NCBI GenBank assembly: GCA_029945665.1
Contig: JAQSCZ010000096.1
Coordinates: forward strand, 28,862 to 92,861
Direction of reading: 5' to 3'
Source of the DNA: a bacterium
Lineage (GTDB): Bacteria > Bacteroidota > Bacteroidia > NS11-12g > UBA955
Length of the DNA stretch: 64,000 nt
This document shows, piece after piece, positions 40,113 through 61,253 of this stretch. The notes below the pieces were generated by a model, which worked only from the letters and a program-made list of their open reading frames with translations, was not told the DNA's origin and did not search any database. Numbering within the stretch: the stretch's first letter is position 1; every line of letters starts with the position of its first letter. The position numbers and the translations under genes are program-made.

Positions 40113-40240
40113 AAGCTTTTGGAGTAATAAAAGGAAGGTGGATTTGGGTAAGTTTTACAAGTGGCTTTGTGGTTAAATGTTTGTCATTTTATTTGCAAAT
40201 ACAGGCAAATAAATCGCCAAACATGGTCAGCATTGTGACC

Positions 40241-40267
40241 GTAACCCCGCACCTGGTGCGGGGTTAC
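40241..40267. repeat. Perfect GC-rich palindrome in repeat copy 1
   Basis: Arms GTAACCCCGCACC and GGTGCGGGGTTAC (13 bases each) surround a single T. The same place in copy 2 (40505-40531) and copy 3 (40769-40795) keeps the dyad with two mismatched positions. Confidence 0.95.
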
Positions 40268-40275
40268 AAACATGT

Positions 40276-40290
40276 GACCCCGATGGGGTC
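40276..40290. repeat. Second palindrome of the repeat unit
   Basis: GACCCC, GAT, GGGGTC in copy 1. Copy 2 (40540-40554) has GACCCC-GCT-GGGGTC. The end of copy 3 has CCCAATTGGG near 40807-40816, a different sequence that is again self-complementary. Confidence 0.85.
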
Positions 40291-40846
40291 ATTGGTATTA
40301 CTCATAATTTTAAATTGCAAACAATCAATAGTCTTAGCTTGTCAATAGACTTGGATGGAAACATGTTGCAATTTTCAGTTAAAAAGACTTGAGTGAGGAT
40401 TAAGTTTGCATTGGAAATGAAAATTAAACTTTTGAGTTAAATGTTTGTCATTTTATTTGCGAATACAAGCAAATAAATCGCCAAACATAGTCAGCACTGT
40501 GACCGTAACCCCTCACCAGGTGCGGGGATACAAACATTTGACCCCGCTGGGGTCATTGGTGTTACTCATAATTTTAAATTGCAAACAATCAATAGTCTTA
40601 GCTTGTCAATAGACTTGGATGGAAACATGTTGCAATTTTCAGTTAAAAAGACTTGAGTGAGGATTAAGTTTGCATTGGAAATGAAAATTAAACTTTTGAG
40701 TTAAATGTTTGTCATTTTATTTGCGAATACAAGCAAATAAATCGCCAAACATAGTCAGCACTGTGACCGTAACCCCTCACCAGGTGCGGGGATACAAACA
40801 TGCGACCCCAATTGGGTGATTGGAATTGGTGGCTTTGTCCTAGCTA

Positions 40847-59964: not shown

Positions 59965-59994
59965 TTTTTTATTCTGTACTTTTAATTAAGTTTG
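59965..59994 (+). promoter_or_regulatory. Promoter of the isocitrate dehydrogenase gene
   Basis: TTT (59965-59967), 19 bases, TAAGTTTG (59987-59994), with the ATG at 60012 17 bases downstream. Confidence 0.55.
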
Positions 59995-60011
59995 CAAAAA
60001 AGAATTAGAGT

Positions 60012-61253
60012 ATGCAAAAAATAAAAGTAGCGAACCCTGTGGTTGAACTAGACGGAGACGAAATGACCCGTATTATCTGGAAATTTATTAAAGACAAATT
60101 AATTGTACCCTATCTTGACCTTGATATTAAATACTACGACTTAGGTATGGAAAGCAGAGATCAAACCAATGATCAAATAACAATTGACGCGGCCGAAGCC
60201 ATTAAAAAATATAATGTAGGTATTAAATGTGCTACGATTACACCTGATGAAGCACGTGTAGAAGAATTTAAGTTGAAACAAATGTGGAAGAGCCCGAATG
60301 GCACTATCCGTAATATTTTAGATGGCACTGTTTTCAGAGAGCCTATTGTTTGTAGCAATGTACCGCGTTTGGTACCTAATTGGACAGCACCTATTTGCAT
60401 AGGCCGTCATGCTTTTGGTGATCAGTACCGTGCTACCGATTTCGTAACCAAAGGCAAAGGTAAATTAACTGTTAGCTTTACGCCTGAAGATGGCAGCCCT
60501 GCTCAATCTTTCGAAGTCTATAATTTTAAAGGCGACGGCGTTGCACTTGCAATGTATAATACCGATGAATCTATTAAAGGTTTTGCTCATTCATGCTTTA
60601 ACCAAGCATTGGGCAAAAAATGGCCTTTATACCTTTCTACTAAAAACACCATTTTGAAAAAATACGATGGTCGTTTTAAAGATATATTCGAAGAAATATA
60701 CCAAGCAGATTACAAAACAAAATTTGAAGCAGCGGGTATCGTTTACGAGCACCGCTTAATTGACGACATGGTTGCTAGTGCTTTAAAATGGAATGGTAAT
60801 TTCGTATGGGCATGCAAAAACTATGATGGCGATGTTCAATCTGACACTGTGGCTCAGGGTTTTGGATCATTAGGCTTAATGACTTCTGTATTGGTAACTC
60901 CCGATGGAACAACAATGGAAGCCGAAGCGGCGCATGGCACTGTAACCCGTCACTTCCGCGATCACCAAGCTGGAAAACCAACTTCAACCAATCCTATCGC
61001 TTCAATTTTTGCTTGGACCAGAGGTTTAGAGTTCAGAGGTAAATTAGATAACAACCAAGAACTAATTAATTTCTGTCATACACTAGAACAAGTTTGTGTT
61101 GAGGTTGTAGAAAGTGGAAAAATGACCAAAGACTTAGCTGTTTGTATCCATGGTAATAAAGTAACGCATGGCGAACACTATTTATACACTGAAGAATTCT
61201 TAGATGAATTAGACAAAGGATTAAAAAACCGTTTGGCTGGCAGTGCTGCTTAA
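60012..61253 (+). CDS. icd: NADP-dependent isocitrate dehydrogenase (eukaryotic-like class)
   Basis: This TCA-cycle enzyme converts isocitrate to 2-oxoglutarate and CO2 with reduction of NADP. The 413-residue homodimeric form belongs to the class that also includes eukaryotic NADP-IDH, as shown by [16 protein letters not shown] at the start, [39 protein letters not shown] and [23 protein letters not shown] (quoted in part: [12 protein letters not shown]). Substrate-binding Ser and Arg residues in the SPNGTIRN block and the metal Asp in [12 protein letters not shown] are present. It is monocistronic, with its own promoter and a perfect hairpin terminator. Confidence 0.96.

Follow-up and report, generated by a model that had tools for sequence, protein, structure and literature searches.

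The three-hairpin block that is repeated in tandem between mtaB and queG is a member of a dispersed, non-coding, intergenic hairpin family of the Bacteroidota. We think it is probably a non-autonomous DNA element without coding function, which would be spread by a Y1 transposase encoded elsewhere.

In the window, the 64,000-nucleotide stretch of DNA that we analysed, the array occupies the interval between mtaB (NCBIfam TIGR01579) and queG (TIGR00276), both on the minus strand. TRF placed it at 40172-40827, with 2.5 copies and 95% matches. The first-pass annotation had described three units with an exact 264-base period filling this gap. The period is indeed exact, with zero indels, and the gap is filled, but only two units are full; the third ends after its hairpin block. 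The layout is block-spacer-block-spacer-block, with blocks of 118 bases and two near-identical spacers of 146 bases. Each block has three hairpins in the order A, B, C, in line with the three or more inverted repeats described for each unit, but C is degenerate in the third block. The array was said to have no conserved frame, and we saw no conserved open reading frame in it. Block 1 folded as DNA gave three hairpins, with z = -7.0 on the plus strand and z = -9.0 on the minus strand. The features are listed here with the scores of R1, a covariance model of the 118-base block made from 28 copies.

40161-40170, plus strand: left 10-mer GTGGCTTTGT, not general to the element
40174-40291, plus strand: element copy 1, hairpins A-B-C (118 nt), three-hairpin fold; R1 93.6 bits, this copy being one of the 28 behind the model
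40177-40224, plus strand: hairpin A of copy 1, an inverted repeat with internal loop TCAT/TCGC, compared among 65 unique A hairpins
40241-40267, plus strand: hairpin B of copy 1, a perfect inverted repeat (GTAACCCCGCACC/GGTGCGGGGTTAC)
40276-40290, plus strand: hairpin C of copy 1 (GACCCCGATGGGGTC), from a genome-wide pattern search; its design is shared with REP units at transposase genes
40292-40437, no strand: spacer 1 (146 nt), within the 264-base repeat family and outside the R1 match; no repeat family of its own detected
40438-40555, plus strand: element copy 2, R1 86.7 bits; A 40441-40488, B 40505-40531, C 40540-40554
40556-40701, no strand: spacer 2 (146 nt), near-identical to spacer 1; the repeat is 95% over the whole 264 nt
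40702-40819, plus strand: element copy 3, C degenerate and unit truncated here, R1 73.2 bits
40829-40838, plus strand: right 10-mer GTGGCTTTGT, not general to the element

Elsewhere in the window, a minor tandem repeat of 20 bases (1.9 copies) lies at 59984-60021.

The BLAST search recommended for the 264-base unit hit partial copies at other places in this 3.8-Mb genome, and these keep the A-B-C order with different stem sequences. R1 matched at least 12 times in the genome, at 10 loci, and it matched in 5 of 16 congeners (at least 11 times in G014, 10 in G005, 7 in G006, 5 in G011 and 3 in G001). Among the candidates scored in the other 11 congeners, two of which are 99% complete, there was no match. 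Because a limited number of candidates was scored per genome, these counts are lower bounds. The exact hairpin-A pattern was present in at least 43 stretches among 84,980 species, mostly from metagenome assemblies and all from Bacteroidota or ‘Chlorobiota’ records. Per genome, scattered Bacteroidota have at least 1-22 hairpin-A matches, the 22 being in distant relatives. The plasmid, phage and viral collections searched contained no copy of the element, and we found no description of the family in the literature. No gene constantly adjoins the element, and the neighbours that recur are orthologues of the same loci. The element is palindromic, non-coding, intergenic and dispersed, the properties by which REP and BIME sequences are recognized.

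Comparison of copies indicates that what moves is a block of roughly 118 bases. In G001, homology between copies at unrelated loci begins at the foot of A and stops just after C. G362 and Marivirga each contain several copies with a genome-specific linker and B sequence, and outside the home clade linker, B and C are more alike in copies of one genome than in copies of different genomes (a difference reached by 0 of 500 label permutations). The idea of a non-autonomous mobile unit that expanded in tandem is upheld by the presence of both dispersed solo copies and tandem copies, but the mobile unit would be the 118-base block and not the 264-base repeat.

Within the home clade, about eight element sites are common to several species. 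At these sites A is 97% identical, compared with 69% for the 60 bases downstream. As the sites are common between species and A is so much better kept than its flank, the home-clade copies are old and their structure is maintained. The mtaB-queG site itself is empty in G014, G005 and G011; empty sites were among the things that the first-pass annotation had proposed to look for. The single 10-mer predicted for an empty site is absent there, and the sequences are too diverged for that test or for placing the insertion point. These empty relatives fit either a gain in the window's lineage or losses in the others.

Other tandem arrays have periods of 257, 270, 275, ~312, 522 and 585 bases (L080, L085, L040, L082, L119 and L117). 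The simplest cause of such tandem growth would be replication slippage at the hairpins. A palindrome, AAAACATACCnnnnGGTATGTTTTT, occurs near many elements and near transposase genes of the genus (L028, L029, L012, L060, L087, L154, L164 and L170; for example L029:150-182). It resembles a terminator or the operator of a repressor, with a dispersal of its own.

B and C are best classed as REP-type hairpins, the kind found around IS200-like Y1 transposase genes. In element-bearing genomes, several Y1 loci have as their flanking unit a pair of hairpins joined by a linker of 8-11 bases. Often a third hairpin lies 20-28 bases to the 5′ side of this pair, a layout that matches A-B-C. A strict detector for B-(5-13 nt)-C doublets found 12 in 98 kb of transposase loci versus 1 in ~440 kb of control sequence. 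The linker TATTCAGATT is common to transposase loci L161 and L012 and to the A-linked copies L048, L058 and L087. In G434, a REP array of roughly 20 units extends on both sides of a Y1_Tnp gene and has a hairpin A at its outer edge. The REP unit of this array, CTACAAATATGTGACCCCGCTGGGGTC, is almost the same as the window's hairpin C together with the leader, TTACAAACATGTGACCCCGATGGGGTC. Genome G000 has two Y1_Tnp genes, each with its own hairpin arrays around it. A tandem REP array of ACGACCCCGAAGGCGGTCGAATCATTGTAGC stands beside a Y1_Tnp gene at L011:1760-2100 (G000:C10), with an assembly run of N inside. Seven of these linked transposases contain Y---Q--HH. This is the signature of subclass 1.2, which consists of Bacteroidota and Cyanobacteria proteins for which the terminal structures typical of IS200 and the properties of an IS are generally missing (PMC6006769).

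The association with Y1 genes is not strict. Apart from the G434 locus, the transposase genes tested in the genus and in other element-bearing genomes had no hairpin A nearby, and within the genus several element-free genomes contain Y1 genes. G361 has at least 15 A hairpins and no Y1_Tnp match, and in G001 there is just a subclass 2.6-like gene. The copies in these two genomes could be relics; for G361, an incomplete assembly could also be the reason. The G001 gene (L163, G001:C7) encodes a subclass 2.6-like TnpA (NHIH...YIHNNP), and a hairpin of TGTGGTTGGTCGC...CCAACCACAGGGG recurs on its flanks. In the window, the foot of B is GTAA and not GT[AG]G. In G434 and G009, GTAG does occur in the REP arrays, at a distance of about 9 nt from the hairpin. 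The GT[AG]G consensus is likewise missing from subclass 2.6 and class 3 REPs (PMC6006769).

The conserved core of hairpin A looks new. In 65 unique A hairpins, TTTGTCAY...YCGCCAAA is constant while the outer and inner stems vary, and the apical loop between TTTG and CAAA ranges from 4 to 24 nt. The internal loop TCAY/YCGC is invariant, and its two Y positions mostly agree, as T and T or as C and C (odds ratio 40, kinship ignored). At L100:1503-1550 in G011, where the left arm of hairpin A is TTTGGCGA, the internal loop is now a perfect palindrome; its orthologues in G005 and G006 keep TCAT. In genus g70 (L205-L209, L211, L213 and L215), GC-richer A variants keep the internal loop constant and both stems can change, as in CTG-TCAC...GCGC-CAG. 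These variants could form a large separate subfamily of hairpin A.

The sequence of hairpin A is far more conserved than those of B and C, and this can be read in a second way: A may be an independent DNA site for a host or mobile-element protein, beside which REP elements insert or exchange. We regard this as a possible but rather unlikely explanation. What follows A on its 3′ side varies by locus and can be B-C of several sequences or a single AACCACTTCGTGGTT hairpin (L042 and L043). In four Chlorobiota copies from G357 (L066, L275, L277 and L280), an unrelated GATGTCC... repeat (GATGTCCAAAAAGT...GTCATTGCGAGGAGGAACGACGAAGCAATCT) takes the place of B-C, almost equally far from A in each, suggesting a hot spot for insertion or an exchange of modules. 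Additionally, A is retained where B-C is deleted (group 5), and the g70 variants of A stand without a GACCCC-type partner. As A was not seen at the other Y1 genes, as G361 has A without a Y1_Tnp match and G001 has it with just a subclass 2.6-like gene, and as B-C is replaced in G357, hairpin A may depend on a separate partner, with B-C as a passenger open to exchange. We entertain with the same reserve the extension of this idea, that A represents an undescribed Bacteroidota family of DNA hairpins whose TCAY/YCGC loop is recognized by a putative nuclease or host protein, with the REP hairpins as exchangeable passengers. However, A, linker, B and C moved jointly in G001, G362 and Marivirga, which speaks for a single element.

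The base pairing of the hairpins is under selection and has been kept through paired changes. Counts of paired changes were well above shuffled and slid controls, with 109 double-change cells for A-B-C versus 48.5 after shuffling, and 101 versus 36 for hairpin A. If these hairpins acted as RNA, G·U pairs would be expected to be clearly favoured on the transcribed strand. Over 82 distinct blocks, the ratio of G·T to A·C mismatches on the read strand was 64:72, even though the alignment had been fitted to an RNA model, and each of the three hairpins gave a similar result (30:28, 21:28 and 13:16). For tRNAs from the same loci, the same count was 17 to 0, with a tRNA caller that admits allowed pairs only. 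These equal frequencies suggest DNA hairpins rather than RNA, and it is mainly on this symmetry that we read the element as DNA.

A structured RNA, either a small RNA gene or an mRNA-end element in several copies, is thus an improbable explanation. Its appeal lies in the stable fold of three hairpins, the strong covariation and the constant hairpin-to-hairpin spacing; some copies also lie close after a stop codon, and several copies precede a terminator-like palindrome. In addition to the mismatches, however, the element favours neither orientation with respect to the gene on the 5′ side of A (24 co-directional, 28 not), and the presence of the element in sister species is patchy. Rfam, at curated and permissive thresholds, gave no family, its one chance match scoring 24 bits against a cut-off of 80. 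The structured RNA cassette suggested by the first-pass annotation was consequently not borne out. On the minus strand, the internal loop of hairpin A is purine-rich (G·A, C-G, G·T and R·R). As the fold is also better on this strand, the minus strand may be the one that is recognized.

The 10-mer GTGGCTTTGT is present at both ends of the array, but its interpretation as a target-site duplication typical of the element was not supported. An exact 10-base flank match has P ~0.001 with shuffled flanks, in a test made because the 10-mer had already been noticed; 0 of 1056 mismatched flank pairs reached 10. Over 33 copies, the window array and 32 others, the flanking direct repeat averaged 5.1 bases versus 4.7 by chance, and the longest match among the 32 was 8 bases. 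As these 32 copies show nothing comparable, a flanking direct repeat does not characterize the element, and we treat the 10-mer as a local accident or a local duplication that does not mark a mechanism. A classical MITE with terminal inverted repeats and a target duplication is therefore very unlikely: the unit is short and non-coding and the 10-mer surrounds the window array, but flanking repeats elsewhere are not above chance, and A is an inverted repeat inside one end with no matching A found at the C end. We set aside integron attC sites and CRISPR arrays, as the element is not known to have core sites matching the former or spacers of the latter.

By description, the element can be likened to the BOX elements of pneumococcus, which are modular, hairpin-forming intergenic repeats. 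It resembles the ends of IS200/IS605 elements and their non-autonomous derivatives in its imperfect hairpins near the ends, the lack of a target duplication and the probable involvement of a Y1 transposase, but no copy of the element contains a transposase gene. REP and BIME (REPIN) sequences of TnpA-REP (RAYT) are also short non-coding intergenic palindromes, clustered at a Y1 HUH transposase gene and scattered as well, often in pairs or tandem groups (PMC6006769, PMC3733652). However, they often have far more copies, with over 100 per genome usual (PMC2817692), compared with lower bounds of 1-22 here. The element also differs from them in having no GT[AG]G foot on its hairpin, in the additional long hairpin A, whose internal loop is invariant in sequence, and in the subclass 1.2 signature of the linked transposases. 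BrickBuilt and other MITEs of Porphyromonas gingivalis are likewise intergenic Bacteroidota sequences with about 10-20 copies and tandem internal repeats, but theirs are IS5-type terminal inverted repeats, 23-nt minisatellites and 4-nt target duplications (PMC4596501).

We propose a model for how a DNA element of this kind could be mobilized in trans. The hairpins would fold when the locus is single-stranded, for instance on the lagging-strand template, and a Y1 (HUH) transposase encoded elsewhere would recognize them. It would then cut beside the hairpins and paste a single-stranded copy at a new site, with no target duplication. After insertion, the hairpins may promote replication slippage, giving the 264-base tandem units in the window and similar arrays elsewhere.

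Subclass 1.2 transposases are generally without typical IS200 ends or IS properties (PMC6006769), and the B-C hairpins together with the G434 locus offer a concrete candidate for their substrate. The family is also a clear example of how DNA hairpins can be separated from RNA by mismatch symmetry, and it cautions that such arrays should not be annotated as non-coding RNA genes. Last, conservation across species at shared positions could point to a host function rather than simple parasitism. If hairpin A does represent a family in its own right, this conservation at fixed positions would reflect a host function such as chromosome organization.
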